DNA of 64,000 nucleotides from Branchiostoma lanceolatum (lineage: Eukaryota; Chordata; Leptocardii; Amphioxiformes; Branchiostomatidae): assembly GCF_035083965.1 (NCBI RefSeq), contig NC_089722.1:43772697-43836696 (forward strand), in the 5' to 3' direction. The translations under genes were made by a program, and so were the position numbers. The notes under the pieces were generated by a model. The model saw only the letters and a list, made by a program, of their open reading frames with translations, had not been told where the DNA came from and searched no databases. Shown here piece by piece: positions 35,955 to 62,000 of the stretch (position 1 is the first letter of the stretch; each line of letters opens with the position of its first letter).

Positions 35955-38900
35955 TCACTGCTGCATGATGCCCCCGTTGTAGGCGTAGTCGGCCTTGTTG
36001 TGCATGATGAGGTTGTTGTCCACGAAGTAGAAACTGTCCGATTTTGTCTCGTAGGGGTGGTCGATCATCTCTTGAACTGGAGGGGAAACAATATACAACA
36101 TTACACATGTACAAAAAAACACACACAGTCTGTAGGGGTGGTCGATCATCTCTTGAACTGGAGGGGAAACAATGTACAACATTACACATGTACAAACACA
36201 CACACAGCCTGTAGGGGTGGTCGATCAACTCTTGAACTGGAGGGGAAACAATATACAACATTACACATGTACAAACAAACACACACAGCCTGTAGGGGTG
36301 GTCGATCAACTCTTGAACTGGAGGGGAAACAATATACAACATTACACATGTACAAACAAACACACACAGCCTGTAGGGGTGGTTGATCAACTCTTGAACT
36401 GGAGGGGAAACAATGTACAACATTACACATGTACAAACACACACACACAGCCTGTAGGGGTGGTCGATCAACTCTTGAACTGGAGGGGGTCAGGCAAAAA
36501 TTTAGAATTACATCATGATAAAATTACATCATGATACATGTGCATAAACACACACATGCACACAGACACACACTACCAAACATTTACACATAAACTGTCC
36601 GTTTTGTTTCATACACAGGCACACACATGACATTGTACACATCTACACGGAGACATACACACACACATGCATGCACACACACAGACGCACACGTGCACAC
36701 ACTGAGACACATGTACACACAAACACACACATGCACAAACACACACAGACACATTCATTGTAACACATACAAACACATACACACTCACACACACACATGT
36801 GCTTCACTTACTCTGATCGGGAGCCAGCTCAGGAAACTCGTATATGTGCTCGCACGTGTTCTTGCTGTTGGGGATGCAGAAGCCAAAGTTGAAGTCGAAG
36901 CTCTTGAGAAGTCGCTCCCTGAAGTAGTGGCGCTCGATCATGCGGAACTGGCTCACCGGCTTGTCTCCTACTGTGAACTCCACTCTGCAGGGAACAAGCA
37001 ATGGGAGGAAAGTTTAACCTTTCGCCATTCGGCACCCAGTTCTCTATTGGTTACAGAGTTAGGCAGCAGGGAGAAGGTTAACTTTTAGCACACTGAAGTA
37101 GCCGTTTGGCACCCGATTCCCTATTGGTTACAGAGTTTGGCAGCAGGGAGAAGGTTAACCTTCAGCACACTGAAGTAGCCATTTGGCACCCAGTTCTCTA
37201 TTGGTTACAGAGTTTGGCAGCAGGGAGAGGGTTAACCTTCAGCACACTGAAGTAGCCGTTTGGCACCCGATTCCCTATTGGTTACAGAGTTTGGCAGCAG
37301 GGAGAAGGTTAACCTTCAGCACACTGAAGTAGCCGTTTGGCACCCAATTCTCTATTGGTTACAGAGTTAGGCAGCTAGGAGAGGGTTAACCTTTAGCACT
37401 CTGACGTAGACGCTTGGTACCCAATTCTCTATTGGTTACAGAGTTAGGCAGCTAGGAGAAGGTTAACCTTCAGCACACTGAAGTAGCCGTTTGGCACCCA
37501 ATTCTCTATTGGTTACAGAGTTAGGCAGCTAGGAGAGGGTTAACCTTTAGCACTCTGACGTAGACGCTTGGTACCCAATTCTCTATTGGTTACAGAGTTT
37601 GGCAGCAGGGAGAGGGTTAACCTTCAGCACACTGAAGAAGACGCTTGGTACCCAATTCTCTATTGGTTACAGAGTTAGGCAGCTAGGAGAGGGTTAACCT
37701 TCAGCACACTGAAGTAGCCGTTTGGCACCCGATTCTCTATTGGTTACAGAGTTAGGCAGCTAGGAGAGGGTTAACCTTTAGCACTCTGACGTAGACGCTT
37801 GGTACCCAATTCTCTATTGGTTACAGAGTTTGGCAGCAGGGAGAGGGTTAACCTTCAGCACACTGAAGAAGACGCTTGGTACCCAGTTCTCTATTGGTTA
37901 CGGAATTAGGCAGCAGGGAGAAGGTTAAAACAGCTGTCTTACATCTGCTGGTACTGGTGTATGACCAAAAAGTTCTTCATTCCCCATTTAAACAACCACA
38001 TTCTTTTTTTTCTTTAAGAGCTACTGTTTTGATGACAGTATGGCGTATATCATCTACTTTAGGGCAATTCTGTTCAGTTCTGACCTTGAGGAACTGTGGC
38101 GTGACACCAGAGAAACTGTGGTGTGAGGCTTAAGATGCTCCAACTGTTCTGAGCTTGAGAAACTGTGGTGTGAGACCAGTATTTATGTTGCTCCTACTGT
38201 TCTGAGCTTGAGAAACTGTGGTGTGAGACCAGTATTTATGTTGCTCCTACTGTTCTGAGCTTGAGAAACTGTGGTGTGAGACCAGTATTTATGTTGCTCC
38301 TACTGTTCTGAGCTTGAGGAACTGTGGTGTAAGACCAGAGACACTGTGGTGTGAGACCAGGAGGTACTTACGTTGCTCCGACTGTTCTGGGCTTGAGGAA
38401 CCGTGGTGTGAGACCAGAGAAACTGTGGTGTGAGACCAGGAGGTACTTACGTTGCTCCGACTGTTCTGAGCTTGAGGAACTGTGGTTTGAGACCAGAGAA
38501 ACTGTGGTGTGAGACCAGGAGGTACTTACGTTGCTCCGACTGTTCTGAGCTTGAGGAACTGTGGTGTGAGACCAGAGGAACTGTGGTGTGAGACCAGGAG
38601 GTACTTACGTTGCTCCGACTGTTCTGAGCTTGAGGAACTGTGGTGTGAGACCAGGAGGTACTTACGTCGCTCCGACTGTTCTGAGCTTGAGGAACTGTGG
38701 TGTGAGACCAGGAGGTACTTACGTTGCTCCGACTGTTCTGAGCTTGAGGAACTGTGGTGTGAACTGGTATCTGACGAAGCGGCCGGCGTTGGGGTCAATG
38801 TCATCAGCCTCCGCGTCCTGGTCATCGTCTTCTGTGGAAAACATTTGTTTATTTATTTATTTCGATTTACCACATTTGTGGAAGGATTGACATAACAGGT

Positions 38901-41900
38901 GACTATCAGCTTTTCAAGATGTCATGCCAGACCGGACTGTAAGATTTGGACCATTGCACACCCCTACTCTTTTTCGAAAGGTGTGGTGGGTTCTTTAACG
39001 TGCGCGGGGTGTGGCTCTCCCCAAACACGGGACCTCCATTTAGCGTCCTATCCGAGGGACGTCCCTAACCCTAGATGAGCTAGGTACTCATTTACACCTG
39101 AGTGAAGTGAGGAAAGTCGTGTTAAGTGCCTTTCCCATTTGTTTCCTCTTATTGTTGAAATTCACCACAAACATGTGAAAGGGGTGGGAGAACAAGTGAA
39201 TCACCTTTTCTGGCTTTCATCCCAGAAACAACTGTTACATCATTAAACAACAACACAATCAAACTTATTGCACTGTTCTTAATTTGTGATCAGCAAACTA
39301 CCGTGGCCATGATGCCAGGCAGAGATTGTATGCTTTAAAGGCAACCAAAGCAATATTAGGGCCCAAAAAATAAAAATTAAAAAAATGCTGAAATCTTTAC
39401 GGTAGTGACATTTGCTAACATTGTTTAGCACATTTGTGTTCTAACTTCATACTTTCACGAGCCTACAAAAACTCCGGCCACAATTTTCAGTGAGCTCTCA
39501 CATCACAACAATGTCATAATTTTGCATGATGGACGTTGCTATACATTGTCATAATGTTGTTTGAACTAATCATGTATAGAAATGACTAAATAAATTGACT
39601 TTCAAAATCTGATTTTCGGGCCCTAATATTGCGTGGGTTACCTTTATTTTAAGGTTGATATTCCAGACCCAAGGTACAAAGTAAAACAACTACAGAGAAA
39701 TTACACAGACCATGGGAATTGTTAAGTACAAAAATGTACTGACCTGAAGGAGGGGGTTTTGCTATCTCAAACAGAACCGTTCCAGAGTCCATGTCTCTGA
39801 TCTTGAACCTGGTGAAGTCGATCTGGAACACGTTCGCTTCGGGCTCACACAGGTAGTCTGGAACAACAGGTAAGCACAGGTAAACAACAGGTAAACATCA
39901 GGTAAACATAGAACAAGTGAACAACATGTAAACACAGGTGAACAACAGATAAACACAGGAAAACAGGTGAACAAATAAAGGTAAACACCAGGTAAAGAAC
40001 CTGTCATCACCATCACCATCCTCTATTCTTACAGAGAAGGAGCATTTGTTTCCCAGAACAGGTTTATTGGTAAACACAGGTAAACAACAGGTAAACACAG
40101 GTAAACAGTATTTGTACCAAAGGCAGGTTAGCATTTCATGTTCCAGGGTACAACTGGATAGGTCAGTGAACTCTTGCATTTTTCACACCACTGTCCTTGT
40201 GTAGAAAAGCTGTCTGGCTATGAGTATGATTATAACATCGTGCATCAAAGCAAAGCCAAGCCAAGTAAAGCATAGGTTGATTAACTGCGTTGGTGCCAAA
40301 TGATGTATACTTCCCTGTATGAAACGTATTCTAATTAGAGGGACACAAGAATCTGTAGTTCAAATCCTTTTTTTAAACATGGGAACAAATTGAATAAAAT
40401 ATTTTTTTATTCGTTTGACCATGAAACCATGGAACATTTTTTATTATTTGTCCGTGAAACATCACTACAATGGTTCCTATCAAACAGTCTTTATTCCTTG
40501 ACCGGGAAAGATCACAACCATATCATATGCAATGTTCACAACAACTATCTTTTTGTTAATCCTTAATTCACCATAAAACATCAGAAAAAATATTTCTATC
40601 AAACATTTTGATTATTTGACCATGAAACATCACAACAATAGTTCCCATGAAACACATGTTTTCTTATTGGGCTGTGAAAGATCAGAATAATAATTCCTAT
40701 CAACTATTTCTTTATCATTGATTTGACCATGCAACATCCCAACAATAGTTCCCACTAAACAAACATGTTTTCACCATTTGGTCGTGAATCATCAGAATAA
40801 TTGTCCCATGAAATTATATTTTTTTCAAATATCACAACAATGTTCCAATCAAACATTAATTTTTTCTTTTGTCCATGAGACTATGAGAACAATTGTTTGC
40901 ATCAAATATTTTTTGTTCCTTTGACCATAAAACATAATAACAACTGTTGCAATCAAACACGACATTTTTCTCTTTTGTCTATGAGAACAAGTTTTTCCAT
41001 CAGGTATTTTTTTATTACTTTGAGTTTGACCTTGACATCAGAAGAACACTCCCCTCCCAGCTGCAAACTGTACGCTGAATTAGGCCAATCGTGCATCAGG
41101 AGGATTCAATCAACCTCCGTTAGCCATGTGTTGGCCGCTACCATGACAACAGCACGGCCACATTGACAGACGAACGGCTTCGCTGACGAGCTGTCTTGTG
41201 TAATTATCTGTTAACGAGCCATCATGGCTGGGACGAACCGATAAATGTTTATGAGAGATGTTGATGAATTGTGAAGTGTTCGATATCTAAAAGACTCAAC
41301 AAAATTGAGATGCTGGAATCTCTAAATTAGCAGCACATAGGTGCCATTAGATGATCCATCTTAAATGTCTACCTGGTTCTGTACTGTGGAGCCGGTACGA
41401 TCAACCTTCAGTTTCACCTCCTAAAGGGACTGATCACGACACTCAATGCTGAGAATCTGGAAAGACACCTGGCAGTCTGCCATCAAGCCATGGCCTGAAC
41501 ATCTATGCGCAAGCACGTTTAACCCTCGCGAGACTGAGAACAACAGACGATAAACCTGATAGTTCAAGTGAGTGTTCTTCTTCCGACAGAAACCCCGCCT
41601 GCACCCTGTACAGTTAGTGAACCTCCCCCTGTGGAAGACAGGCCTGCGCTAATGATCAGTGTCTGAGGACCAGATGTTGTCCTGGCGATTAAACAGTTAC
41701 CATGGTAACCAAAACAACACTCCCCAGGAGGACCCATGTAGGGTATTGGAGTGACATCAAGCGATGGCCGGGCCTTGCTGATTTAATTCTGCGGTTCTCG
41801 GACATTGCAAAGTACAAATTCAGCACAAGGTGAAAACAGAGCGCTGGTACATGTAGGTAAACTTTAGCAAGTGGTTTTTACTTTGTAAGTACAAATGTGC

Positions 41901-44821
41901 TGTTAGGTCTAATGTAAAGAATTAGTAAAAACCCCGGTAACGCTTAAAATCGACAAATTTTAGGTCATGTTTTGGGCAATATTTTTTCTAAATATTAACC
42001 GATTTTCAAAAAAAAAAATTCTTGCATTCCTTCTTGCACCAGCTGTTGGTGAATCAAGGTCTGAAACAGTCATATGTTATGTAGACTTTGCTATCCACTG
42101 GTAACATGTTGGGAAAAAAAGGGGTACACCTGAATGCGAAATAGCCGCGAATCCAGGGCTGTCTCCGGGACCAGTGAGTCCCTACGTAGATGTCCCAGGA
42201 TGGAAATTTGCTTGTTGGGACAGAAAAAAATCTAACCATATCGATCTAAAAAAATCTGAACTTCATGACTTGAAATTGATTAAAATTTATTTTTTTAAAG
42301 CTAAAAATGACATATTTAACCATTTTTGGTGGGGAAAAAACATCGGCTCCCAAACAATGAGGGGTACAGAAAAATGCAAAGCTACTAGAGGCTGCCCCGC
42401 TTGACTATGGTACAGACTTGGTTTTATTTTCATGCAGATTTCTGTGTTAAATCTGAAAACCAACAAATTGAATTGGTGTTGCCCTATCTGTGATCCGCCT
42501 ACACTGATCAGATCTGATTTGTTGGAGGGGACCACGAAATGGAAGTTGATTGTGGTTTTACCCTGAACCTTCGAAGGCTTACTCAGTAACTGACTGCTGC
42601 ATGTAACTCTATAACTTAGTACTGTATAAGGAACTGACACTCAGGAAATTGATGGCTGTACATGTACATGTTTATGGATGTAAGAAAAGCAAGTTGCAAC
42701 TCTAATGGTCGTCTAGATTTGGAAATCTGGCTTCAGAGTTTCCTTTTAAATTTGAAGCAAGGTTATAAAAAGCAGGCTTGAATCCCAATCAAAATTATAC
42801 ATGGCCCTGTTGCAATTTCAATAAAGAAAGAAAGAAAACAGTTCAGCAAATTGCAGGTTACAGTTGGTATTTTGAGCCCTGTATTATTAAATATTACAAT
42901 ACATTTCAATCTCTTTTCAGTATCCCCCGATTTAATTTGGATAGGCCGATTGCAGTTTTCCATCCCTTATATGGTCGTTTTCTCACTTATTATCTACCTA
43001 CTTGTAGCTATAAAAAGGGGTGCTTGTTTTGGACATTATAATCATACAGGAAATAAGAGTTAAGAGGCAAAAACTGGTCTTTATATAGATGACTGTATAG
43101 GAGCTATTTTCGTGATCATTAAAAAACCTGAGTGACAATATGTTTGAAATAACATCCTCTGCGCTATTTCTAAATCTCACAATGTTATTGTACGATACTA
43201 TGACATTTTCCTTACCTAATATGGCTTTGATAAAAGGAACATTGTGTCCAAACTGTCTAAAAGGCAGCCAAACATAAACACAGTCAGGTGTGGATGAAGA
43301 TGTCATGTGGACAATTTCATACTAATCTGCTTAATTGTCATGGAAACGGTGGATTAACTCAGACAACAATAGGAACACAAAGGGGCAGATCTGGTCTGGG
43401 AAGACTTAGTAATACATGTTGTCTTCATGAATAGATTCATCAGGCTGGTAAATTGATCAGCAAGGATCTGCAATAATAATAACACAGACTATAAGACATT
43501 TACTTGTTTCTAAGAAGGATCCAGAGACTGAGAGAGACATGTCAAACCTGATTTGTGACCTATTTCTGAAGATAATTGGAAATCTCTTGATCTGAGTGGT
43601 CTACTCAGAAAAATATAAATAGTAAGTATAGAATCTGATTAACATGTAGTTCCTGACACTTTCATTCTATGAATAGCTTGATCTGGTTGGTAAGTAATTT
43701 GGGAGGTGAAGTTAATGTAACCAAAGTTACACTTCGGCACCTTGTATTGAAACCTGCCTTCTTCAGTGCGAATGAAGAATGTCATCTCAAAATAGGCTAC
43801 AAAATTGGCACAATCAAGGAGGTTAAAATAATAAAATTCTAACCTCCTTGGCACAATGCAGTGGAGAGAAGCAGGTTCACTATAACCTGGTGAAGGGAAC
43901 TGACAAGTTTCTGAAACATTGGCAGGTAGATAATTTTTGGTTGTCATGCATGAAAATAACTTTACCTTTCAGCTTTCTTGAATATACGACTATAGCAAGA
44001 TTCTGGTTTTCCACACAAACCTGTTTTTATCTTGACTTCTTGCTTTCAATCTGCACTTTAACTTGTCCCAGAACCAAGAAAATAAATTGGGGCGGGTTTC
44101 GTGGTCTTATGCAAAATTCCTGTAGAACTAGAAGGGGCAACGTCCTAGAGGCCATGCACCCATCATGACTTGTCATTTTCATTAAGAACCAATCAAGTGT
44201 GTCAAACTAATAAAGGAGGATTACGTTTTACCTTAAGTCTCAAGCAACTACATCAGTGGATCACAGACTGTTAATTTTTTCTTTAAATTACAAAGTTTTT
44301 AACGTATCTAGAGTGATATCTGATATAACGTTATAGAAACCGATTCTGACACCTGTTTACCCAAGTTGTCTTATTCCGTACCGGTAGCTACGCAGAAATT
44401 ACGTTTCTACCAAACAGAAACTAACTTGTTTCGGCCTTCTGTTCAGGAAATCAGCTCGCCTTGGAGTTCATGGTCAAGACGGCGGGAAACTTTCACTCTT
44501 TTTTCTCCCCCAAGTGAGATAAGACACACCTGTTAGTGTAACACTTGCTACAACATTCCTTATTCACAGTCTACCATGGCAGCCGGCAAACAGATCTGTC
44601 TGTACGCCACTCACAAACCGGTAACTACGCGCGCTAAGGAGCGGGAAAACGGCCTTACTTTCTGTGACTTTGGGGAGTTTGAGGACGTCATCCGGCGAGA
44701 TGTTCTCCTTCTGTAGAAGTTCCTCTTCTGTGATGTAGTTTTGGTTCTTCTCTGTTTTCTTCTCTTTGGCCAGTCGGCTGATCAGCCCTCCCCCTTTCTT
44801 TTTCTCTCTCGGCGCGCTCAT
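35955..44821 (-). CDS. UNC119: UNC119: lipid-binding chaperone of myristoylated proteins, 5 exons, 226 aa
   Basis: Coding exons on the minus strand: 44821-44659, 39857-39744, 38831-38723, 36984-36812, 36076-35955 (681 nt including the stop), all with AG/GT borders and consistent phase. UNC119 binds the acylated N-terminus of myristoylated cargo (transducin alpha, Src-family kinases, ciliary proteins) in a PDE6-delta-like beta sandwich. Seen here: a basic head [16 protein letters not shown], the family core [80 protein letters not shown] and [15 protein letters not shown]. Length is near the vertebrate 240 aa; the head is shorter. Exon 3's donor and exon 5's acceptor lie in tandem arrays (separate entries). 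The donors chosen are those contiguous with exon 3, and the exon 5 acceptor chosen is the one contiguous with the final exon. Confidence 0.96.
36048..36490 (-). repeat. Array duplicating the UNC119 exon 5 acceptor and exon start (6 copies, about 81 bp)
   Basis: On the minus strand each unit holds CATTACAC-side intron, a TTTCCCCTCCAG acceptor and the exon start TTCAAGAG(A/T)TGATCGACC up to CCCTAC. Acceptor-adjacent first exon bases fall at 36479, 36398, 36317, 36236, 36157 and 36076; spacing is 81 bp except one 79. The five upstream copies lack the rest of the exon and pass from CCCTACAG straight into the next intron piece (TGTGTGTTTGTACATG). Confidence 0.93.
36520..36800. repeat. CA-rich microsatellite in UNC119 intron 4
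   Basis: Imperfect ACACAC / CACATGC repeats running to within about 10 bp of the exon 4 donor (36811). Confidence 0.85.
37017..37930. repeat. 77-bp minisatellite in UNC119 intron 3, about 12 copies
   Basis: Unit holds TCTCTATTGGTTACAGAGTT, GGTTAACCTT and CACTGAAGTAGCCGTTTGGC; spacing 76-78 bp. It starts about 30 bp from the exon 4 acceptor. Each unit has an ATTGG (CCAAT box) in a near-palindrome and a GTTAAC. Confidence 0.92.
38100..38723 (-). repeat. Array duplicating the UNC119 exon 3 end and its splice donor (about 11 units)
   Basis: On the minus strand units read CACCACAG, TTCCTCAAGCTCAGAACAGT, CGGAGCAAC and GTAAGTACC: the last 29 nt of exon 3 and its donor. Six donors GTAAGT have their first base at 38722, 38665, 38608, 38529, 38450 and 38371, spaced 57 or 79 bp. 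The 79-bp units carry an extra 22 bp (CAGTTTCTCTGGTCT side). Further units down to about 38100 are decayed and have lost GTAAGT. CACCACAG before each 29-nt block looks like an acceptor, so each unit resembles a tiny exon. Confidence 0.92.
38945..39140 (-). repeat. Interspersed repeat, copy 2, in UNC119 intron 2
   Basis: Reverse complement of the repeat at 18385-18560 (CCTACTCTTTTTCGAAAGG, CTATCCGAGGGACGTCCC, TCATTTACACCTGAGTGAAG). Confidence 0.7.
39863..40110. repeat. GTAAACA-rich repeat abutting UNC119 exon 2
   Basis: Irregular repeats of AGGTAAACACAGGTAAACA and variants, about 15 GTAAACA/GTGAACA cores. It starts about 10 bp from the exon 2 acceptor, so the repeat supplies part of the pyrimidine tract on the minus strand. 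GTAAACA is also the forkhead-factor core. Confidence 0.85.
40380..41040. repeat. Diverged AT-rich tandem repeat in UNC119 intron 1
   Basis: About ten degenerate units of 60-75 bp with recurring GACCATGAAACAT, CACAACAATGGTTCC and ATCAAACATTTTTTATT. Confidence 0.65.
41041..44658. other. Rest of UNC119 intron 1
   Basis: No gene. 42160-42420 (CTGTCTCCGGGACC...GGCTGCCCCG) resembles 57230-57435 and may be a decayed inverted-repeat element. 43817-43853 is a small palindrome (AAGGAGGTTA...TAACCTCCTT) whose AAGGAGGTT motif recurs near 46663, 52145 and 52243. Confidence 0.45.
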
Positions 44822-44929
44822 ATTGCCTTGTAACAGTCACTACAGTCCAAGCTCTACCTCCCCCGAGTCGCAACAGTCGCTAACACCAGATCTTGCGTCT
44901 AGAACCAACCGAAAGGCGCTGCGAACAGA

Positions 44930-45060
44930 CAATTTTGTTCCGACTTTCTCCCAGAAATGTGAAATGTTGTCGCACAGACACCAACAAGATGGACGCCGTC
45001 CGCGCACGGCCCGACGGGAAAATACGTCATTTCCGGTTGGCCGCGGGGAATATGAAAAAA
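44930..45060 (-). promoter_or_regulatory. Candidate UNC119 promoter
   Basis: GC-rich block just upstream of the UNC119 ATG. On the minus strand CCGGAAATGACGTAT (45026-45040) joins an ETS site to a CRE-like TGACGTA. AAGATGGACGCC (plus strand, about 44987) resembles YY1. Together these look like a TATA-less housekeeping promoter. The transcription start is not defined. Confidence 0.5.
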
Positions 45061-45631
45061 TAAAGACTTTATCCTTAAAAGCGTCGCCTCTGGGCAGGGA
45101 TTTATCGGCTGGATGAAAAGATCAGCTGTGATATCGGAAATGTGATAAGCCGTATGATAGAGTCGTTACTTTGAACTTAGCTGTGCGCGGAAGTATATCA
45201 TCTGCAACTCGTACAGAAACCGCTAGGTAGCGCACATGCATGATCATGCCAGAGACTGAGATCCTTTCATGTTATGTTAGTGTAGTAAAATGTCATGGTT
45301 TACAATCGTTACTTCTCAGATTTCTTCAGAAAAAAATTGCATCGACAGGCGAAAAATAAATATTTTTTTTCAAATAGTCTTGGGCGAAGATAAAGGTTTA
45401 CATAACATTAAGAATAAGAGGATTATTAAAATTTTAGCTTTGTATGGCTCATTTTTTGGAATGCATTCCTTTCTTTGATCTAGTACTATAATTTCAGTAA
45501 CAAAGGACAGGGTGGGGTTACGTTAACTATGTGAAATTGCACAGAAGTGTTTTGATGTGGCTTCTGACTGGAGGTGGTTGGCTGACCAGGTTTGGCTGAA
45601 TATACAAATATGGCCTCCAAAGGTTCATATT
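45061..45631. other. Spacer upstream of UNC119
   Basis: AT-rich, with no gene or clear repeat until the SINE target duplication at 45622. Confidence 0.4.
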
Positions 45632-46680: not shown

Positions 46681-46688
46681 TGATTTAA

Positions 46689-47446
46689 AGGCATCCAGAG
46701 CATTTTATGTGGCTTGAAAATTGGAAATATTCTAGTTGCTGTAATCTTTATGGAATTGCCATCTAATGCCATTGTAAACCACATTTATGTGCTAATTTCA
46801 TGTTAAAAGCGTACAAAAACCGAGTGAAAATAAGCAACACAGTGACTCCTTTATTTAGACGCGCCTAGTGTAATTAGATTGAAACAGAACTCAAAACGGT
46901 TTTTTCGTCGGTAATGGACCGTTCCCGTCGAACACCATATAGAACCCCCTGTTCTATTTGGAACACCTCCGTCAAAAACAGCGCTAGTGGTACAGAAATG
47001 ACAAGCAGAAATGACAATGCATATCTGGGACAGATATCTCACTGCATTGGCTACATGAATACCCAAGAAAAAAACGAAATGAAAAAGAAAATATCTCTGG
47101 CACTCAAGGGGACGGAGCTTACGTAACACATTGCCAACTACTACCAAGTCCGTCTCTCATGTACTTGTGCGTTATTCCTGTGTTCGACTGGAACGGTCAG
47201 TTCTCTGCAAGTTCCGGCGACGGGACGTCACGTTCCAAGAAGTCGGAAAATTTGAGAACAAAAACGGCGGCGCTGACAGCGCTTGGATTTTTTTTAGTGC
47301 TCAACACACAGCGACATCGCATCTTTGCTCCTTGAATATCGATATGTAATGGTATAGTGTTATTGAAACTTACTATGTGTAGAAATGGCTAAAAACTGGA
47401 GTTTTTTAATTTGGGTTTGAAGCCACATAAAGTGCTCTGGGTGCCT
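46689..47446. mobile_element. TTAA-target DNA transposon, non-autonomous, 758 bp
   Basis: Ends AGGCATCCAGAGCATTTTAT and ATAAAGTGCTCTGGGTGCCT are inverted repeats extending about 35 bp (GTGGCTT...). They are flanked by TTAA at 46685-46688 and 47447-47450. TTAA targeting fits piggyBac or Kolobok; AGGC ends favour Kolobok. No transposase frame. Confidence 0.8.
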
Positions 47447-47451
47447 TTAAT

Positions 47452-50400
47452 GTGAAAATGGATATGGTTCATTTAAGTTTTGAACTCCTGACCTCAGCTT
47501 CTGAGAAACCAAGGCGTGGGTGATAGCGCACCCTGGTCAGATGGACACCGGACGTCTCAGCGGGGAATATCCTCAATTTACCCTGACTCAGTAGATTGTA
47601 AGGATTAGTCAGCGACAAGGAATTGTCTCAATGTCTTATATATGGCAGACGTCGGGTGACAGTAACACACTCTGCGCTGAGAAGCACGCACGCAGCCACG
47701 CTCAGCAATCCATTCAACTTGGTCAGAGATACTCTTGGCCCTCGGTATTGGAGTTCGACAGGGAGTATCGCACCCTGCAGGCAAACTACCACTTTCGGTG
47801 GGGGGCGGACTCACAACATCTAATGACAAAACATCTCGAACCGATTCGTGCCGCTCCCCCCAACACTACAAATTCCGCCCGGGCTACCAAGCCTCAGTCT
47901 GCCTCTCCGCTGGCCGCCAACGGCAAACCCATCTGCAAAAAGTTTAACTTTGCCAGCACAGGGTGTCCTCACTCTCCGTGTCGGTTCGAACACGTGTGCT
48001 GGCTCCCAAATTGCGGTAAAAGCCACCCGCAAAGCCGCCACGTGCCGTCCGGCCTGACTGCTCCGCCTCCACAATCAGCCTGACTGCAGCCGACTGCATT
48101 ACTGGGTTCACGCCCACTAAATTACAGCGCCTGGTGTCGTGAACTCCGGCATGACCCAGACAAATCCTTCTTACTTGACGGCATCCAACATGGTTTTCAA
48201 CTCATGCCGAATCTAGAAAGACACAGCATTGCACCGGTCGAGGTAGCTAACTACAAGTCTGTCACGAATCCAGACAGAAAACCTCAAATTGAGCGTCAAA
48301 TTTTGCAGGAAATTAAAGCCGGTAACCACATCGTCACGGAATCAAAACCGCACATTGTCAGCGCTTTCGGGGCGGTCCCTAAACCTGACTCAAACGACTT
48401 GCGTCTTATTCATGATTGTAGCCAACCCGCTGGGGCGGCAGTTAATGATTATATAGAAATTGATAAAGTAAAATTCCAAACCATCGACGATGCGCTCAAA
48501 TTAATCAAACCGGGATACTTTATGGCCAAAATTGACCTGAAGTCTGCTTACCGCTCTGTACATGTTCACCCCTCCTGCTACAGAAACTTAGGCTGTAAAT
48601 GGCAGTTTGAAGGTCATGAACATGACACGTATCTGGTTGACACTAAACTTGCATTTGGGGCGAAATCGTCCCCCTCAATTTTCCATCGCCTCACTCAATC
48701 CGTCCGCCGCATGATGAAACGACGCGGCTTTGATATGATTATTGTGTACCTCGATGATTTTCTCATTATCGGCAAGACATATGGCGAATGTCTTCAAGCT
48801 TATCTAATGCTCATGGAGCTTCTGCAGGAACTAGGCTTCCAGATTTCGCAGCAAAAGCTAGTTCCACCATCGCAATGCTTAACCTTCCTGGGAGTCGAAA
48901 TAGACAGTCGCAGCAAAACTGTGTCGCTCCCAGCCGCAAAGCTTCCCGAATTCCGATCCTTACTAGCCGAATTCTCGCATAAAACTCGCGCTACTAAGCG
49001 GCAACTGCAGCAACTAGCAGGGAAGCTCAATTGGGCATGTAGGGTAGTCTACGGCGGGAGAACTTTCCTGCGTAGAATCCTTGACACTCTCAACAAGCTA
49101 AAGAAGCCTTATCACAAGGTAAAACTTTCCGCGAACTTTAAATTGGATATTCTGTGGTGGATGGAATTCATGACCACATTCAACGGCAAACGTTTCTTTT
49201 TAGATGATGTTCCGATTGTTGACGTGATGACTGATGCCTGTCCCATTGGGGGCGGTGCGTTTTACAACGGGGACTGGGTGTACGTCAACTGGGCCAGAGA
49301 TCTCCCCGCATATTCCGACTTGCATATTAACCAAAAAGAAACACTAGCTATCTGTTGCGCTGCCAAACGTTGGGCTCCGCTATGGGCAAACAGGCATGTG
49401 ATCATTCACACAGACAATATAGCAGCCCAAGCCTTCATTAACAAGGGCACCACGCGTATGTCACACCTCATGCCGGAATTGCGTCATTTATTTTGGCTTT
49501 CTGCAGCTTACAATTTCCGCATTACGGCCCGTTACGTCAAAGGCTGCCTCAATACAATAGCTGATTCTATCTCTCGCATGCATGACCCGGCCCACATTCG
49601 CCGGTTTCAAAGCCTTCTCGTCGCATGGGTGGACGAACACGCCTCCCCTTTGTCCAGCCCCGACCTGACCTTTTGCCCTCTCACTCCACAGGGCATAAAA
49701 TACCATCGCCTCCCGGCTTGGCCACTACGTTGGAACGGAACTTGGATGCCGAAATCAGTGCATTCCGTGCTTCCACCTTCGCAGCATGATAGCACCAAAG
49801 CTACCTACGGTACCCATCTCCGAGCGTACCTCCAATTCTGCCTTTTCATGGGCTACGCCCCGGTGCCTGCAACCACGGAGAATGTTTGTCGCTACGCGGC
49901 ATTCCTGGCCCGCTCGTTAACTTACCCTAGCATCCGGCAGTATCTGAACATTGTTTCCCTGCTCCATAAAGAATTTGGCTTACCTAACCCGATCATACAA
50001 AACTGGCAACTGCAAACCGTTTTGCGGGGCATTCGGCGATTTAAGGGAGACACCCCCCGCAGAAAGCTACCAATCACTCCTACAATACTGCTCGGTATCT
50101 TGTCTACTTTAGATTTATCATTGAGCGTCGACGCGACCTTTTGGGCGGCTTGTCTGGTCGCTTTCTTTTGCCTTTTTCGGAAGGCCAATCTGGTTCCTTC
50201 CTCCAAAAACGCTTTTTCCTCTTCGAAACACCTCAGTCGCTGTGATTTTAAACTTTCCGCGTGGGGCCTGATAGTCACTTGTAGGTTCTCCAAAACTATA
50301 CAATTTGGCGAAAGGCTCCTCGAAATTCCGCTGCCAGCCATTACCGGCTCACCACTTTGCCCGTGTGCCGCCATGACACTGGCGTTCCAAAAAGCCCATG

Positions 50401-52141
50401 GGGCAACGCCCAATCAGTCTGCATTTCTCTACAGAGATCACACTGGCTCACTATTCCCGCTCACGTATCCGAAGTTTCTACACAAACTCCGCTCCAGCCT
50501 CTCCTCTTTGGGATTCACCCCCTCCGCTTACGCTGGCCATTCCTTCCGTAGGGGTGGTGCGTCCTACCTGCTAGAATGCGGTGTTCCGCTGGACCTTATC
50601 AAAATCATGGGAGATTGGAGGTCTGACTCTGTATTTGTGTATTTAGCAATCAATTTGCAAGGCCGTCTCACTGTAATGAATACAATGGGAGAAAGACTAC
50701 GGACCCTACTTTAAGTAAATGTATATGTTGTAATGACCTTCTGCTATCACTACTATTAAACTAGATACGTAAGTTTTGGGCTTTGGGAGAAACTTTGTAT
50801 TGTGTGAGAATAAAACTCCCAGTGTTTATTGCCCAAAAACTGACTTTGTACTTTCTTTTTCGGAAGGCCAATCTGGTTCCTTCCTCCAAAAACGCTTTTT
50901 CCTCTTCGAAACACCTCAGTCGCTGTGATTTTAAACTTTCCGCGTGGGGCCTGATAGTCACTTGTAGGTTCTCCAAAACTATACAATTTGGCGAAAGGCT
51001 CCTCGAAATTCCGCTGCCAGCCATTACCGGCTCACCACTTTGCCCGTGTGCCGCCATGACACTGGCGTTCCAAAAAGCCCATGGGGCAACGCCCAATCAG
51101 TCTGCATTTCTCTACAGAGATCACACTGGCTCACTATTCCCGCTCACGTATCCGAAGTTTCTACACAAACTCCGCTCCAGCCTCTCCTCTTTGGGATTCA
51201 CCCCCTCCGCTTACGCTGGCCATTCCTTCCGTAGGGGTGGTGCGTCCTACCTGCTAGAATGCGGTGTTCCGCTGGACCTTATCAAAATCATGGGAGATTG
51301 GAGGTCTGACTCTGTATTTGTGTATTTAGCAATCAATTTGCAAGGCCGTCTCACTGTAATGAATACAATGGGAGAAAGACTACGGACCCTACTTTAAGTA
51401 AATGTATATGTTGTAATGACCTTCTGCTATCACTACTATTAAACTAGATACGTAAGTTTTGGGCTTTGGGAGAAACTTTGTATTGTGTGAGAATAAAACT
51501 CCCAGTGTTTATTGCCCAAAAACTGACTTTGTACTTTCTTGTATAGACTAAACTATTTAGCACAGTAGGATTCAAAGTGAAAATGGATATGGTTCATTTA
51601 AGTTTTGAACTCCTGACCTCAGCTTCTGAGAAACCAAGGCGTGGGTGATAGCGCACCCTGGTCAGATGGACACCGGACGTCTCAGCGGGGAATATCCTCA
51701 ATTTACCCTGACTCAGTAGATTGTAAGGATTAGTCAGCGACAAGGAATTGTCTCAATGTCTTATATATGGCAGACGTCGGGTGACAGTAACACACTCTGC
51801 GCTGAGAAGCACGCACGCAGCCACGCTCAGCAATCCATTCTGCACCCTAATCCCACCCGACCCGATTATCTGTCTAGTAATATCAATTATTGTAATTGCG
51901 TTGTTAACATGTTTGTGACAATTAGCTTTTCACTCGTTATTATTGTGTAGTCATTTGTTGTGCGTACTCAAGTACCTTCAGAGTCTTTGTGTAGATTTAG
52001 TATTTGTGTTTAGATATAGTACTTGTGTGTAAGGGAGAAACTTTGTATTGTGTGAGAATAAAACTCCCAGTGTTTATTGCCCAAAAACTGACTTTGTACT
52101 TTCTTGTATAGACTAAACTATTTAGCACAGTAGGATTCAAA
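47452..52141 (+). mobile_element. Ngaro-type tyrosine-recombinase retroelement, nearly whole
   Basis: Split direct repeats: A1 at 47452-47715, A2 at 51577-51840, B1 at 51468-51576, B2 at 52033-52141, in the order A1-genes-B1-A2-B2 that marks Ngaro elements. A short gag-like frame with a CCCH finger (CKKFNFASTGC) lies at 47631-48083. A long frame at 48204-50714 (836 codons) encodes reverse transcriptase (IVYLDDFL), RNase H (TDACPIGGG) and a tyrosine recombinase (AGHSFRRGGA, then GDWRSDSVFVYL). A segment of 683 bp, covering the recombinase end and a shortened B copy, is repeated in tandem (about 50173-50855 and 50856-51538). No Dam-type methylase is seen. Copies of each repeat look nearly identical, so the insertion is young; the main frame is open and few or no breaks are evident there. 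Confidence 0.92.
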
Positions 52142-52619: not shown

Positions 52620-53017
52620 TGTAAATTTGACGCATGCGCTCTGACGTCCTTGTTTCCGCCCGCGCATGCGCATCTGGCTGGTGTCGATTTTTTGCGCCAA
52701 GTTTTGCGGTGAATTTTCCTGTGTTTTCAGCTCTTCTTAGCTGCTTTTCTCGCTCATTTTTCGATACTTTTGGCTAGAAACTTGGATTCTGGTAGCCACT
52801 AGTCCTAGAATTACGTGGTGCGAGTTCTGTGTTGTTTCGACGAATCTTTCTCGAGAAATTGAGTCGAGAAGTCGGTCGGTGGTGGGGGGAGCTCGGACGG
52901 CCTGAGCCGGGGTCGGTTTCTCCCAGAAACTGATTCTGATGGGCCCCAAAAGCTGAGTTTGTGAGCCGAGTGAGCTGCGGACACGACTTTTCTGTTGTTT
53001 ATCTGTACGTCACCGAC
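52620..53017 (+). promoter_or_regulatory. Candidate PHF12 promoter and 5'UTR
   Basis: CGCATGCGC (52631-52639) and GCGCATGCGC (52662-52671) are NRF1-type sites around a CRE-like TGACGTCC (52642-52649). Then GC-rich sequence runs to the ATG at 53018. No TATA box. In-frame upstream codons from 52961 have no ATG, so the start is 53018. Confidence 0.55.
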
Positions 53018-56000
53018 ATGACGACCGTCACGTATGATTTGGATACGTCAGGAGGGCTCATGGAGGTAAGAGAAGCTCGGAAGTCTACTCGATCTTTCCC
53101 GTGCCCTTGCACATGCTTTTCTACCAGAATTTCCTCAAACTCAGGCCCAAAAATTCAACTTTTCCAGTCAAACTAAACAGAGTTTTCCCTTTCCTCTCGC
53201 GAAAACAGAAAATCCAGGCCCTCATCGCCCCGCCGCAGAGCGAGGAGCCGCCGAAGCGGTCCAGGAGGGAGGCGCGGGAGCCGAGACGGACGGGGAAGAG
53301 CTTCAACCACGACTGCTGCGACTCCTGTAAGGAGGGAGGGGACCTACTCTGCTGCGATCGCTGTCCGGCCGCCTTCCACCTCCAATGTTGGTAAGTCAAC
53401 AGTTTTTCTATACTTAATAGTCACGAGAAGGTTTGTGTCTTCGTTTTGGTAGATTTGGAGGTGTTTATGACAGGGAGTTGTTGACGTAAAGAATGGAAGA
53501 ACGAAAGATACTTTCCGCCATGGCTCTGTTGAAAAATATGGGCCGGTGGGCGCCATCTTGAATTTCTGTGCTATTCAGATCGAAATTTCACTGCACAAAA
53601 ATAGCTGGCGGGTTTCCTGGGCTGGTCGCTCCTGTCCGTACAACAGAAGGTGTTTACCGCCGCAGTTTGGGCGTCCTGTGGATAGGTGTGTCCTGTCAGG
53701 CCCGTACAGCGGCTCTGCTGTTGTTGGTTTGTAGCAGTGCTTGGGGAGGGGGGCCGGAGGAGGGGTTTGGTTCAGAACGGGTCCGTTCGGACAAACACAG
53801 ACTCACAGACGCCGCCTTCTCAGAGGTGTGCTGACTTCTTGTAGTGCTGCTGTCTTAAGAACGACTTAAACTCCTTGTGTGAAGAATAACTGTCTTAAGG
53901 TGACCTTTCTACAGGCCTCGTTCCCATCAGGTACAAAACTGTCACCTTTTGATTTGAAATTTAAGTTGTTTGTCTTCAGGAATTTGTGTTCAAATCTCTC
54001 CCCAATGTCAACATTTCCTCCTTACCTAGCTCCGAAGGTTTGACCTTCTTAGACATTTTCTCGTGGATCTCAGAAAATGACAGGAAATGAGGGGACAAAT
54101 GATAAGGACCGTTTTTTAAAAGTTCCTCTCAGACATGCAAAACTATGCAGCAACATATGGCCTGCACACAAACTGTGGAATGTTATGATAAGTTATGTAC
54201 AGCAATTTAACATTGAGTAGCAATTGTCAACAATCTGTTTCTATTCGTAGTGAAATCAAGCGTCTCGTCACATATAACCCTGCATATCTAATTCCTAGTA
54301 ATGATCTATCCGTAACTCCAGCCATTGTTTAAGCCAGGCCGTAAAAAAAATCTATCTTTAAACCCCTATCTATATAGGAGGTCCATACTGTACTTGATGA
54401 CAACCAGGGTTTTTTCTAGAAAAATTGAATAAGAGGGAGCACACACAGGCGAGTGAGCAAATTCTATGTATTTATGGAAGAATCCATTGCTGAGTGAAGG
54501 CTGTATGCTGGGGATTAAGCTAAAATCTGAATTTGACATGGGGGTGCTGGGCTGAAACAAGAGGGTGCAGCGCCCCTCTTTCCTGATTTAGATGAACCCC
54601 TGACAACTTTTTGAACACCTCCCATGCTATCCTGGTTGATAACTCTCTGGTACATGAAGGCATGACTATGTCTTGTTCTTTCCTAAGCTCGTTCCAACTT
54701 ACTGAGTTGCCGGGTACGTCCACCAGTTTATTAGTCATTTTGTACATCATGCATATAGTCTGGACATGTCACATTGTCAGTGACAGTGACAGTGTCTATT
54801 GATTTGACACTAAAGCGTATTTCTCTGTGGAGACTACCGTAGTGTATGTTGTGCTTAATAATTACCCTAAATGCTAACGACAAAGCTTTAATTACTGTTC
54901 AGTTCAACTGTTGTTTGACTCCGTAGTACAGCAGACTGTAACTAATGTTGAAATATCATAACATGACCCGCTCACTGGTACTATCAGTAGTCAGTGGTAG
55001 GCCTGAAAATTCAATTCAATTTTTAATTCATATTTCAACAGCACATACATATAAAAAATGGTTGCTTGAACGACATTGATTTTTACATTCAGAGCACAGG
55101 ATTGACACATGAACATGTAGCAGAATATGTAGCGTACTAATAAAGTTGCTGAGATGTCAAAATGAAAGCTGAAGTTGTTTAGGCTGGGTTAGAGCCTTAC
55201 TGGTGACACGTTGGGCAGTCAGCCAAGTCTGCAGCCAGGTCACAACATGCACAGGTTAGCAGCATACAGGTCTGGAAATTACTAAGATTGGAGCTGTGCA
55301 GATATTTCTGATACCTACCTGCATCTTACCTGCATTAGTGCATAAAACCAGCCACAGCACTTGGGTTACATACATACATGGTCAGTATAGGTTTCTTCAG
55401 AATCAGAGTACATATTAACCTTTAGTACTGAAGCCGAAAACAAGGTCCAAAATGGTAGTACACCTGCTATGAACTATTTCAAAACATTGTTTTTCATGGA
55501 CAGTCCGACTGAAAGGCAAGGAGAACGTACGAGCTTGTCTGGTTCAGGTGATTTTAAATGTTACATACGCGGATGCAGTATGGAGGGAAAATTAGTTTGA
55601 GCCCTGGCACAACTTCTAGCATAATGTATGGACCGGTTTGCTGTCCTACTTTTGAAGGTTTGGATCCGGACTGTTGTAACTACAGGAGACTGCGAGTATT
55701 GGTGTCTTTAGACCACACCAATTTATTTCCCTGGTTCGGTTCTCCGACATTTTAGTGTAAAACTAAAACAAGATGGAAATAAACTTTATTATAAAGAGCT
55801 GGGTTGTAAACTTGAGTTGAACCATTTTAACTCCCCAAAAAGTGTTTACTGAGGTGCCGACAGACTTTCTCTTCGGGATTGGTTGTTATATCTACCCTCA
55901 TGATCTATTGTTATGATGCAAGACTGAAGAAAAGTACAGCAACTGCATGTTTTTCTTATAATTATATAACTTGCAACATTGCTTGTTGTCAGACATTTTA

Positions 56001-59000
56001 GTGTTTTTTTTTGCAGTTGGGAAAAACATTCTGCAAAGAAATACCACAGTCACAAGCCATCTACTATGATCTAGGCTTTATTGATAGTATGCAGAGTTGA
56101 GTTTCATGATATCACATCTGATTTTTGTAGATGTAAAGATGTTTATCATTTTCCCTGTAGATGTTAATTTTGTCCCCTGCAAATTTCAGGTGAGTTTTTG
56201 GAGCACGGAATTGTCAGTAATATTTCACACATGTGGAAGTAAACATCACGTGTCACAGGTCAGTTCCGCCCTGTCAGGGAGTGTGGGTTGACAGGGGAGG
56301 GTGGGGTCAGGTAGGGGACAAAGGTTAAAGGTTATCATCATCTAGTCTGAGATGTGTTTGTGTTCAAAACTACTTTATAAACAAGGTTGAAGTTGAGGGT
56401 ACCAATATTTCATGTTATCAGTTTTCCTTCAGAGCATTGTGTGCAAAGTTTTTGTTGTTTAGAGAATATTTATTCTGCTAGTGCTAGTTGTTATTTAGTT
56501 GTTATTGTTTTAAACAGACTTACATAAGAGAAAAAATAATACTTAAATCAAGACGATGTATTACATGGTTGCTGAGACTTTGCCTTTGTAAGTTTCCACA
56601 ACAGCCCTTAGAAGTAGATTTAGCTTGGGATGTGATTTTACTGGCTGTTGGACTCCACAGTTCAGCCATGTAGCTGCAGTGAGACTGTAGACAGAAAGCT
56701 TCGTTAGGGCTGCTACTGGTCGGCCACAACAATTCTGGGATCCAAATTTTAAAAAGATTAATTTACTAGTATGTTGAACTGAAAAATTTTCAATTATCAA
56801 CATGAAAGCAGAGTCTGAGAGGAAAGTCTGTACCTTGGTACACACAGTTTCAGGGAGTAAATGTTGTATTATGTAGGCAAGTGCAAGATTCCCTCCCAGC
56901 CCTCTGTGTTCATCATGTCCTCTTGCTGAATTGTTACTTCAATTTGATAGTTTAGAATATCCCAGAGCCGAGGGTGAGAATCAACAGTTACTGATGTAAG
57001 AGTCTGACTTTCCTGTTTCCTTACTGTTGGCCTGAATCAGTGGCAGCTGCTGTGGGGAAGACAGGAGGTGGTTAATGACCAGACAGCTCCTTGGCACATG
57101 TCCACACTGTGGTGTACACATGTACAGGCACCAGGGTTCAATATACCTGCTGATGCCCTCTGGTAATAGCCTGCCTGGTGAGATTCTGGGAATTGAAGGG
57201 TTCTTATTTTTAAAGTAGATGCAAGAAGCTGTAACCAATGCTGTCTCAAGGACCCGTCCCCAGACGGATATTTGCATGTTGGTACGGACAAAACGTCTGT
57301 CCAAAAATCTGACTTCCATGATATGCAGTTGATGGAAATGTATTTTCATAAGCTTAGAATGACAGATTCAACAAGGAAAATCAACAACATTGGCTCCCAA
57401 ACAAGGAAAAACAACTAAAACTGGAGACAGCCCGGCACTTCCTCCATGTGGCATAGTTGATATTGAGATTTTGGAATCTCATATATCCCTCAAACCATCC
57501 AGTTGGTTTCGAAAGTCTACTTGAACTGTCATCAGGCCCCACTAGCATATTTTCTACGTTTTCTGACTAAAAAGTTGAGGAGAAATTGAGCAAAAAATCA
57601 AGATGAACACAGGCGGCTTTCGTCTGACCAAATTCACTCCCTGAAACTGTGTGACTTCACCTCAGACTCTGTTTTCATGTTGACCTTCCGTTCCAGTTTA
57701 GCATGATTTTAAAATACTAGAACCAACGAACTAAATTGTTTCGGCCTCATGATCTTGCATGTACATCGGCCCGCCTTCCTTACTGTCCATGTTGAGTCTC
57801 TTTTGGCACTCCCTCCATGTTGCCTCACGGTCTCTTTTCCCTCAGCAAGCTTTTAATACAAATATTTTTAGCAGTTACTAGAATATTCTTCAAATATTTT
57901 TAACAGGACATGGCATTTCAAAAACATTTGCTAACTGAGTTTGATGTGTTTTCCGTAGTGGTGTAGTCCTGGTACAAACCTACATGTACATTAGCAGAAG
58001 CTTTCTTACAATACAAGCCACATATTTCATAAACAAGCGTCATCCAACCTGACACCCCCGTCCCGTAGTGGTTCCTCCCCGCTCACCAGCCAATCCTCAA
58101 TCACCAGTATGAAATGAGAGGTCATCGACCCTTGGCTGTGGGATATTCTGCATGATAAGTGGTTGCCATGGCAGCAGCTGTTCAATAATTGATGTTTTGG
58201 AGGATAGTTCATTTCTGTCCGCATGAAACGTGGGGCTTGAAATTTATTTTTGTGTGGTGCAATTTAGCTGTATTGGAGTGTGTCATGTTGGATGGATACC
58301 TGTAGCTTTTCATACAGGAGAAAACTTGCCTTTCTCTAAACTATAGATTATCTGACATTGTCGGATTGAAACCCGTAAATCTGTGTTCTGCCGTCAGTTG
58401 GGATCAGCTGATCAGGAGCTCTGGCTGCAGGGAGGGTTCCGTTTAGACAAGGAGGGCTGGAGGTCACGACCTTCTGTCTGGCTAATGGGGCTCAGTTTGG
58501 ACAGGAGCCAGCATGGTCCCTCACTGGAGTTCCAGTTTGGACAGGAGCCAGTATGGTCCCTCACTGGAGTTCCAGTTTGGACAGGAGCCAGTATGGTCCC
58601 TCACTGGAGTTCCAGTTTAAACAGGAGCCAGTACAGTCTCTCACTGGAGTTCCAGTTTGGACAGGAGCCAGTACAGTCTCTCACTGGAGTTCCAGTTTGG
58701 AAAGGAGCCAGCATGGTCTCTCACTGGAGTTCCAGTTTGGAAAGGAGCCAGCATGGTCTCTCACTGGAGTTCCAGTTTGGAAAGGAGCCAGCATGGTCTC
58801 TCACTGGAGTTCTAGTTTGGACAGGAGCCAGCATGGTCTCTCACTTGTGTTCCAGTTTGGACAGGAGCCAGCATGGTCTCTCACTTGTGTTCCAGTTTGG
58901 ACAGGAGCCAGCATGGTCTCTCACTGGTGTTCCTGCAGCGCCTATCAGATTTAATTGAGTCAGTAGAACACAGTATTGATGCTATGGTAACATCTATAGT

Positions 59001-62000
59001 GATGGACTACAAGGTGACACAGCAGTGTGGTCTCTTAATGGAGTTCCTGTAGTCGATGTCAAATTTTATTGAATCCCTAGTAGAGCTGTGTACCGGTACA
59101 CTGTACCGATACAGTACCGGGTACAATCAATTAGGTACAGGTCCAAAATACCTGACCCTGCTGTATCGGTACTGGACCTGACTCAGGAAATGGCCACTTT
59201 GACAGATAAAATTACTATGAAATCACCGTGGCAGTGCTCTAAAGCCACTCTAAAGGCACAGAAAACACATCTGCATGGCTGGAGTCAAATTTTCATCTGT
59301 GTTTTCATAAAAATAATACCGAGCACAATCAAATATTATGTTTTTACCACTTCAAACATGCTTTTGTCCTTATTGAAAATCTAGCATTTTCCGAACAAGT
59401 AGTTTAGGTACAGGTTCAGGTCCGGACCTGTACCTTAACCCGTGTACCTGTACCTGTACCCGTACCTAAAAGTTGTTTAGGTACACAGCTCTAATCCCTA
59501 GTAGAGTACAAATGTACATGAGACAACAACTTAAGTCAAAGAAATGTTCTTCATGTTCTCCTGTGACTCCGGAGAATAGGATGCTGCCCTACTCCTCTAA
59601 CCCATAATCTTGAAGTGACCTAAGAGTGAATGAAAAAAGGCACTGAAAGATAAATCAGAACGTGTGTTTCAAAATCAAAGCTTGTTAAAGGAGGTTAAAG
59701 TCGGCATCTTCTCCAAACTAGAGCGGCCATACATCAACCCCCGTGTTCATACTACGGCCCATAATTCACATGCAGCCGCATCAGTCTAACCTTATCAGCT
59801 GCCCTACATACCCACATACAGGCCCACCGCCCGCATGGACCCGCCATTACCCATTCATTACATGGATCCTTCCAGCTACAGCCAGATACATGATGAATGT
59901 TTCATACAAATGTACATAAGGAACAGTCCATGGAAGGCATAGGGGTGAAATCAGAATTGTTTTACTACATGGAAAGAGAAGGTTGTGTGACGTGTATTTA
60001 CAGTCGAACATTATGTTGACCCCCCTACTATTAACAAGGACCTGTCCCTGTTGTTCCAGTGACCCTCCCCATGAATAATGACCTGTCCCTCCTGTTCCAG
60101 TGACCCTCTCCATGAATAATGACCTGTCCCTGTTGTTCCAGTGACCCTCCCCATGAATAATGACCTGTCCCTCCTGTTCCAGTGACCCTCTCCATGAATA
60201 ATGACCTGTCCCTGTTGTTCCAGTGACCCTCCCCATGAGTAATGACCTGTCCCTCCTGTTCCAGTGACCCTCTCCATGAATAATGACCTGTCCCTGTTGT
60301 TCCAGTGACCCTCCCCCATGAGTAATGACCTGTCCCTCCTGTTCCAGCGACCCTCCCCCATGAGTAATGACCTGTCCCTCTGTTCCAGTGACCCTTCCCC
60401 ATGAGTAATGACCTGTCCCTGTTGTTCCAGCGACCCTCCCCCATGAGTAATGACCTGTCCCCTCTGTTCCAGTGACCCTCCCCATGAGTAATGACCTGTC
60501 CCCTCTGTTCCAGTGACCCTCCCCTGTGTGAGGAGGACCTCCCCGAGGGAGAGTGGCTGTGCCACCGCTGCACCGTTCTGACCCACCCCATGAGTAATGA
60601 CCTGTCCCTGTTGTTCCAGCGACCCTCCCCCATGAGTAATGACCTGTCCCTCCTGTTCCAGTGACCCTCTCCATGAATAATGACCTGTCCCTGTTGTTCC
60701 AGTGACCCTCCACCATGACTAATGACCTGTCCCCTCTGTTCCAGTGACCCTCCCCCATGAGTAATGACCTGTCCCTGTTGTTCCAGCGACCCTCCCCATG
60801 AGTAATGACCTGTCCCTCTGTTCCAGTGACCCTCCCCCATGAATAATGACCTGTCCCTGTTGTTCCAGCGACCCTCCCCCATGAGTAATGACCTGTCCCT
60901 GTTGTTCCAGCGACCCTCCCCTGTGAGTAATGACCTGTCCCTGTTGTTCCAGTGACCCTCCACCATGACTAATGACCTGTCCCTGTTGTTTCAGTGACCC
61001 TCCACCATGACTAATGACCTGTCCCTGTTGTTCCAGTGACCCTCCACCATGACTAATGACCTGTCCCCTCTGTTCCAGTGACCCTCCCCCATGAGTAATG
61101 ACCTGTCCCTGTTGTTCCAGCGACCCTCCCCATGAGTAATGACCTGTCCCTCTGTTCCAGTGACCCTCCCCCATGAGTAATGACCTGTCCCTGTTGTTCC
61201 AGCGACCCTCCCCATGAGTAATGACCTGTCCCTCTGTTCCAGTGACCCTCCCCCATGAGTAATGACCTGTCCCTGTTGTTCCAGCGACCCTCCCCATGAG
61301 TAATGACCTGTCCCTCCTGTTCCAGTGACCCTCCCCATGAGTAATGACCTGTCCCTGTTGTTCCAGCGACCCTCCCCATGAGTAATGACCTGTCCCTCCT
61401 GTTCCAGTGACCCTCCCCATGAGTAATGACCTGTCCCTGTTGTTCCAGCGACCCTCCCCCATTGGAAATGACCTGTCCCCTCTGTTCCAGCGACCCTCCC
61501 CTGTGTGAGGAGGATCTCCCCGAGGGAGAGTGGTTGTGCCACCGCTGCACCGTCCTACAGCAGTTTCCTCCCTCCCCATGAGTAATGACCTGTCCCTCCT
61601 GTTCCAGTGACCCTCCCCCATGAGTAATGACCTGTCCCTCCTGTTCCAGTGACCCTCCCCCATGAGTAATGACCTGTCCCTGTTGTTCCAGCGACCCTCC
61701 CCTGTGTGAGGAGGATCTCCCCGAGGGAGAGTGGCTCTGCCACCGCTGCACCGTCCTACAGCAGTTTCCCCCTCCTCCATGAGTAATGACCTGTCCCTGT
61801 TGTTCCAGCGACCCTCCCCTGTGTGAGGAGGATCTCCCCGAGGGAGAGTGGCTGTGCCACCGCTGCACCGTCCTACAGCAGTTCCCCGAGCTGGATGACC
61901 GGGACGAGACCGCCTCCAACGCCAGTGTGGCAAGCAGCACAGCCAGTAACAAACAGGTGAGGGGCCGGTCTGGAAGTGAGTGTGTGCAATGTTATTTAAT

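Follow-up and report, generated by a model that had tools for sequence, protein, structure and literature searches.

In this study, we analyzed a 64,000-nt window of Branchiostoma lanceolatum DNA (a single genomic sequence), in which minisatellite arrays were found to lie across exon/intron borders of two neighbouring genes, UNC119 and PHF12. As listed in Table 1, UNC119 is contained completely in the window. Its predicted product matched the GMP_PDE_delta domain (E=2.1e-71) and human UNC119B (9odx; E=3.6e-97). PHF12 is represented by its 5′ part; its exons 1-6 joined into an open frame of 304 codons, and the translation of exons 1-4 matched a PHD finger as well as human PHF12 (8bpb; E=1.5e-55). 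When the exons were joined at the borders used here, both genes kept open frames (UNC119 over its full length, PHF12 across exons 1-6). The nine complete introns of the two genes summed to 17,726 bp, in agreement with the approximately 18 kb of intron quoted in an earlier, sequence-only reading of this DNA.

Arrays were called with Tandem Repeats Finder (TRF), and an array was counted when its unit was at least 35 bp long, when it comprised more than two copies, and when it lay inside UNC119 or PHF12. This definition left out units shorter than 35 bp, two-copy rows, zinc-finger coding arrays, and a 92-bp array located outside both genes; among the two-copy rows left out were 39861-39974 (period 58, by the UNC119 exon 2 acceptor) and, as a separate row, 61653-61887, which belongs to the PHF12 array. 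Overlapping or adjoining TRF rows were merged (40563-40754 with 40836-40959, and the rows making up 38136-38762 and 60039-61887). Six minisatellite arrays were obtained, and the gene models placed a splice border inside three of them, at 36076/36077, 38722/38723, and 61808/61809, which confirmed the claim of the sequence-only reading that three arrays hold true borders (UNC119 exons 3 and 5, PHF12 exon 3). Moreover, beyond mere overlap of array extents, the units of these three arrays were themselves found to hold both intron and exon sequence.

Table 1. Positions in the window of UNC119, PHF12, and the repeats associated with their exons and introns.
Feature	Position	Strand	Remarks
UNC119 gene	35955..44821	-	5 coding exons; consensus borders; 226-codon open reading frame
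UNC119 coding exons	44821-44659, 39857-39744, 38831-38723, 36984-36812, 36076-35955	-	
PHF12 gene, 5′ part	53018..64000	+	runs on past window end
PHF12 exons 1-6	53018-53065, 53209-53390, 61809-61956, 62314-62535, 62930-63119, 63348-63471	+	
81-bp array, UNC119 exon 5 acceptor	36051..36488	-	6 copies of CCCCTCCAG|TTCAAGAG
UNC119 exon 5 acceptor copies	36157, 36236, 36317, 36398, 36479 (decoys)	-	true site at 36076
53/57/79-bp array, UNC119 exon 3 donor	38136..38762	-	
UNC119 exon 3 donor copies	38666, 38609, 38530, 38451, 38372 (decoys)	-	true site at 38723; decoys with intact GTAAGTACC
UNC119 exon 3 degraded copies	38293, 38240, 38187 (ATAAATACT); 38133 (frayed)	-	fragments beyond
41/42-bp array, PHF12 exon 3 acceptor	60039..61887	+	three longer units with 66-79 nt of exon
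77-bp array, UNC119 intron 3	37024..37928	-	unit without border
52-bp degenerate array, UNC119 intron 1	40563..40959	-	border 705 bp away; counter-example
40-bp array, PHF12 intron 2	58493..58933	+	11 copies; nearest mapped border 2.9 kb; counter-example
TTTACCTGTTG-type (GTAAACA) repeats, by UNC119 exon 2 acceptor	39862..40107	-	period 10-58 bp
CA-rich tract, by UNC119 exon 4 donor	36653..36799	-	

At the UNC119 exon 5 acceptor, the five decoys, taken outward, differed from the true site at 0, 1, 1, 2, and 1 of 26 exon-part bases and at 1, 0, 0, 1, and 9 of 20 intron-part bases, and the AG signal was kept in all five extra copies. If the nearest decoy were used, 27 codons would be added in frame; use of any of the other four would cause a frameshift in which the native stop is passed and a stop is met downstream instead. 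No stop lies within the array for any of these five decoys. At the exon 3 donor, the donor was kept in 5/9 extra copies, the failures being the three ATAAATACT copies and the frayed one, and each of the five intact decoys would, if used, lead immediately to a TAA stop. The exon part of the eight copies that were measured carried, from the innermost outward, 1, 0, 0, 1, 2, 2, 2, and 2 mismatches per 40 bases; since these counts rise outward, divergence is slightly greater in the far copies, and it was in far-end copies that the donor was lost.

In the PHF12 array, a search for CAG followed by C/TGACC recovered 38 acceptors within 1.8 kb, of which the one at 61809 is the true site. The acceptors were spaced 40-42 bp apart, save for gaps of 106, 117, and 117, and this regular spacing indicates that no unit was missed by the search pattern. 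CAG was present in 38/38 acceptors (the AG signal was therefore kept in 37/37 extra copies), and 17 of the 37 decoys were identical to the true site across the 22 upstream bases. Variation in the pyrimidine tract was mostly among pyrimidines, with a G at one column in 20/38. All 37 decoys, if used, would give a premature stop. Longer pieces of exon 3 also occur in the array, at 60514-60579 (66 bases, 3 mismatches), 61491-61568 (78 bases, 2 mismatches), and 61692-61770 (about 79 bases, 2 mismatches). On aligned columns, variants among the copies were seen by eye to fall in the intron-derived and exon-derived parts alike. The three longer exon 3 pieces, also judged by eye, end without a donor. 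Micro-exons within the PHF12 unit were considered by eye and set aside. The 40-bp array of intron 2 was considered as an eroded exon 3 border and was rejected, given that no match was found (106/500 shuffles reached the score).

On these sequence features, the three border arrays are quite likely to be amphioxus-type "mirages", as arrays in amphioxus globin genes have been called (PMC3087553), produced by tandem duplication of a border-straddling segment and subsequent expansion. We infer both the duplication mechanism and the choice of splice site. Local tandem duplication of a segment of about 40-120 bp straddling an exon/intron border would found the minisatellite, which would then expand, and become partly homogenised, via slippage or unequal exchange. 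The border attached to the whole exon would stay functional, and extra copies would build up on the intron side alone, as it is only there that splicing takes them out together with the intron. Given that many decoys carry near-identical splice signals, it is probably context that marks out the true site, which alone is connected with the remainder of its exon and, in the case of internal exons, with a partner splice site. The sequence-only reading had offered selection that keeps one intact border as an explanation; a gene does need one working border, and this explains why the copies are tolerated, but it does not explain where arrays start.

The anatomy of the arrays, the intact decoys, and the effect of each decoy on the reading frame were observed directly, and the additional copies have the look of decoy splice sites that are tolerated. 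Alternatively, the decoys might be functional, so that UNC119 and PHF12 output would be adjusted through unproductive splicing according to the number of copies. The premature stops expected from 37/37 PHF12 decoys and from 5/5 intact UNC119 exon 3 decoys would suit such a role, as would the retention of CAG and a pyrimidine-rich tract in 38 PHF12 copies. However, the five exon 5 decoys encounter no stop inside their array, the donor GT was lost in three exon 3 copies with a fourth frayed, a phase-2 intron starting with GTAA yields a stop by default, and high identity among copies could by itself account for the kept signals. Moreover, globin and Adh mirages are described in passages of PMC3087553 as not interfering with regular splicing, while use of cryptic sites is allowed for. 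We consider functional decoys to be extremely unlikely. It might also be argued that the arrays, or their copy numbers, were misassembled, as happened in a draft genome to one globin mirage that has been published (PMC3087553); the lancelet PGBD5 region, too, exists in two versions with unequal copy numbers (PMC3902484). At PGBD5, re-sequencing is reported to argue strongly against assembly error (PMC3902484), and the copies in our window differ by shared variants and fall into classes; an assembly artefact is thus exceedingly doubtful.

Whether borders are preferred sites for such arrays was assessed through placement tests, all of which were post hoc and applied to a region chosen for showing the pattern. 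The first tests used 19 borders; a point control and variants of the founder test used 18 (those of the nine complete introns). When founder units were placed randomly, a border was expected to be spanned in 0.27 arrays, compared with the three of six observed (P=0.0016). When unit length, overlap, and the collapsing of introns were varied, between 0.27 and 0.53 arrays were expected, and P ranged from 0.0015 to 0.011. When whole arrays were placed randomly instead, P was 0.22, or 0.031 if exons may not be engulfed. Two results weigh against the scenario of border-founded arrays. By point coverage, 3/18 borders lay in locally duplicated DNA, compared with 505/2431 intron points, so that no excess at borders was seen. 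In addition, the sequence flanking the exon 5 array on its outer side resembled the intron part of the unit only weakly (12/500 shuffles reached the score), and the founding step of this array was therefore not clearly reconstructed.

The founder test asks where arrays begin and the coverage test how much is covered, and the latter is diluted by expansion; the former is weakened by small numbers and by the post hoc choice of region. It may be, then, that borders are not preferred at all, that minisatellites are common in these introns and founders fall anywhere, and that the three border cases were simply noticed afterwards. Array bases amount to 26% of intron length, three of the six arrays hold no border, and both the coverage test, with no excess, and the whole-array placement, with P=0.22, speak for this view. 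On the other hand, for units that contain a border the fitting null is the founder test, whose expectation is exceeded by the observed three of six, and border-spanning arrays have been independently reported in other amphioxus genes. We regard the absence of any preference as a serious contender, at somewhat less than even weight. Taken together, the placement tests are suggestive of a border preference but do not establish it; with the founder test in favour, the coverage test not, and only three events, the matter stays open. The proposal that arrays nucleate on exon edges holds for the founding of three arrays, and the related proposal of non-random placement is suggested by the founder test but not supported by coverage. 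That splice borders are a true hot spot of minisatellite birth in this lineage, with exon edges multiplied dozens of times and a decoy copy number that differs among individuals and tunes gene output, appears very improbable. Among the papers listed by our literature searches, no genome-wide count of border-spanning arrays was seen.

If the excess of border-spanning founder units is real, it could also reflect a duplication process directed at splice sites, whether by transcription, by R-loops, or by RNA bound to the spliceosome. According to PMC3990486, GC content combined with GC skew is the best sequence predictor of R-loop formation. Positive sense-strand GC skew, a mark of R-loop-prone repeats, was found in none of the three border arrays (-0.046, -0.270, and -0.314), whereas two of the three other arrays were positive (+0.333 for the 52-bp and +0.077 for the 40-bp array, compared with -0.112 for the 77-bp array); the values were +0.015 for UNC119 intron 1 and +0.059 for most of PHF12 intron 2. 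Because R-loops are also reported at sites without high GC or GC skew (PMC9223372), this evidence is not decisive, and the R-loop-linked origin raised in the sequence-only reading is disfavoured, short of exclusion. Moreover, a donor and acceptors are both affected, and no single splice signal therefore accounts for the arrays. We judge targeted duplication of any of these kinds to be highly improbable.

Three further repeats of UNC119 had been described as stopping 10-30 bp from a border, a position regarded as unusual. Measured from TRF edges, this distance held for the CA repeat (12.5 bp from the exon 4 donor) but not for the 77-bp array (39.5 bp from the exon 4 acceptor), and the GTAAACA repeat was closer still, at 4.5 bp from the exon 2 acceptor (3.5 by one row). 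Introns 3 and 4 consist of repeat over 86% and 76% of their length, respectively, and repeats in them must therefore end near a border. The chance of such a gap through packing was 0.29 for that end, or 0.53 for either end, for the 77-bp array, and 0.13 or 0.26, respectively, for the CA repeat. The exon 4 pyrimidine tract showed a weak likeness to the 77-bp unit (7/500 shuffles reached the score), the likeness of a segment across the exon 4 acceptor border was reached by 155/500, and in the point control no likeness at this acceptor was seen, as 85% of the 2431 control points reached the score. The 77-bp and CA repeats were accordingly rejected as signs of border preference. By comparison, the GTAAACA repeat lies closer to its border than the length of the intron would lead one to expect (0.0017, uncorrected). 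The likeness of the exon 2 acceptor to the adjoining repeat was reached by 1/500 shuffles, although it was unremarkable in the point control (28% of 2431 control points). As the sole near miss closer than expected, the GTAAACA repeat stays an open candidate for border preference, and the remaining near-border repeats are mostly explained by packing. Degenerate ACCCTTGAACTTTGAAC/GACGCCCTTGT repeats at 63180-63347 were also seen by eye to reach the PHF12 exon 6 acceptor, a border that was unremarkable in the point control of 2431 intron points.

Other elements were noted in the window. A retrotransposon lies between UNC119 and PHF12 (47446-51840); its open reading frame (48084-50714) gave reverse transcriptase and RNase H matches, and the C terminus appeared tyrosine-recombinase-like by our own reading rather than by a tool match. 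It is bounded by direct repeats of 270 bp (47446-47715 and 51571-51840; 99% identical), and a 300-nt stretch of its interior is repeated at 683-bp spacing. The 92-bp array mentioned above comprises about 13 copies (26364-27547), lacks the dinucleotide AG throughout 26364-27535, and leads straight into a C2H2 zinc-finger coding stretch, which, by eye, is without the start seen in the window's other zinc-finger genes. The style of these zinc-finger genes, together with the UNC119-PHF12 neighbourhood of chordates, would suit an amphioxus source.

Arrays comparable to those of UNC119 and PHF12 have been published. According to PMC3087553, mirages of amphioxus globin genes have units of 150-160 bp and occur at both border types; BflGb6 carries six units in one haplotype and three in another, length instability is described, and somatic instability is cited for Adh. 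Globin RT-PCR (reverse transcription-polymerase chain reaction) together with Adh data suggested there that regular splicing is undisturbed, although cryptic sites could be used. The same source proposes mirages as a source of new introns and as possibly general in cephalochordates, and calls their mechanism unclear. Arrays of 60 and 108 bp at PGBD5 borders are described in PMC3902484, which also cites the Adh and troponin C cases. Passages of PMC2206037 report tandem repeats in amphioxus huntingtin scaffolds and make no mention of placement at borders. Our literature search returned no paper naming three or more of UNC119, PHF12, amphioxus, and minisatellite together.

Two other systems bear a more distant likeness. 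Intron gain by tandem genomic duplication involving AGGT (PMC3443670) likewise entails a tandem duplication, local in extent, in which splice signals are copied; there, however, an exonic segment is duplicated and yields a new intron, whereas here a border is copied into the intron. Within this one genome, the UNC119 and PHF12 models contain no intron that is derived from a duplicated part of an exon. CeRep25B of C. elegans (PMC4039745) is also an intronic minisatellite and is over-represented near alternative splicing regions, but it is described as bearing regulatory motifs, and the passages of that source do not mention copying of exon borders.

The closest likeness is to the mirages of Adh, the globin genes BflGb6 and BflGb9, troponin C, and PGBD5, in which, as far as the published passages describe them, units span a donor or an acceptor border as they do here. 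Published units range from 10 to 160 bp, and decoy splice signals are present in many copies, again as in our arrays (PMC3087553, PMC3902484). Judged by these shared features, the three arrays are new cases of the mirage kind already published in amphioxus. They differ in that the hosts, UNC119 and PHF12, are new, and in that two neighbouring genes are affected at once; together they bring three further examples to the few in print. Moreover, PHF12 has 38 acceptors, more than the 2-7 copies that the passages on published mirages report (figures for Adh and troponin C not included). With 38 near-identical acceptors packed into 1.8 kb, this gene is a naturally occurring test case for how the spliceosome finds the right site.

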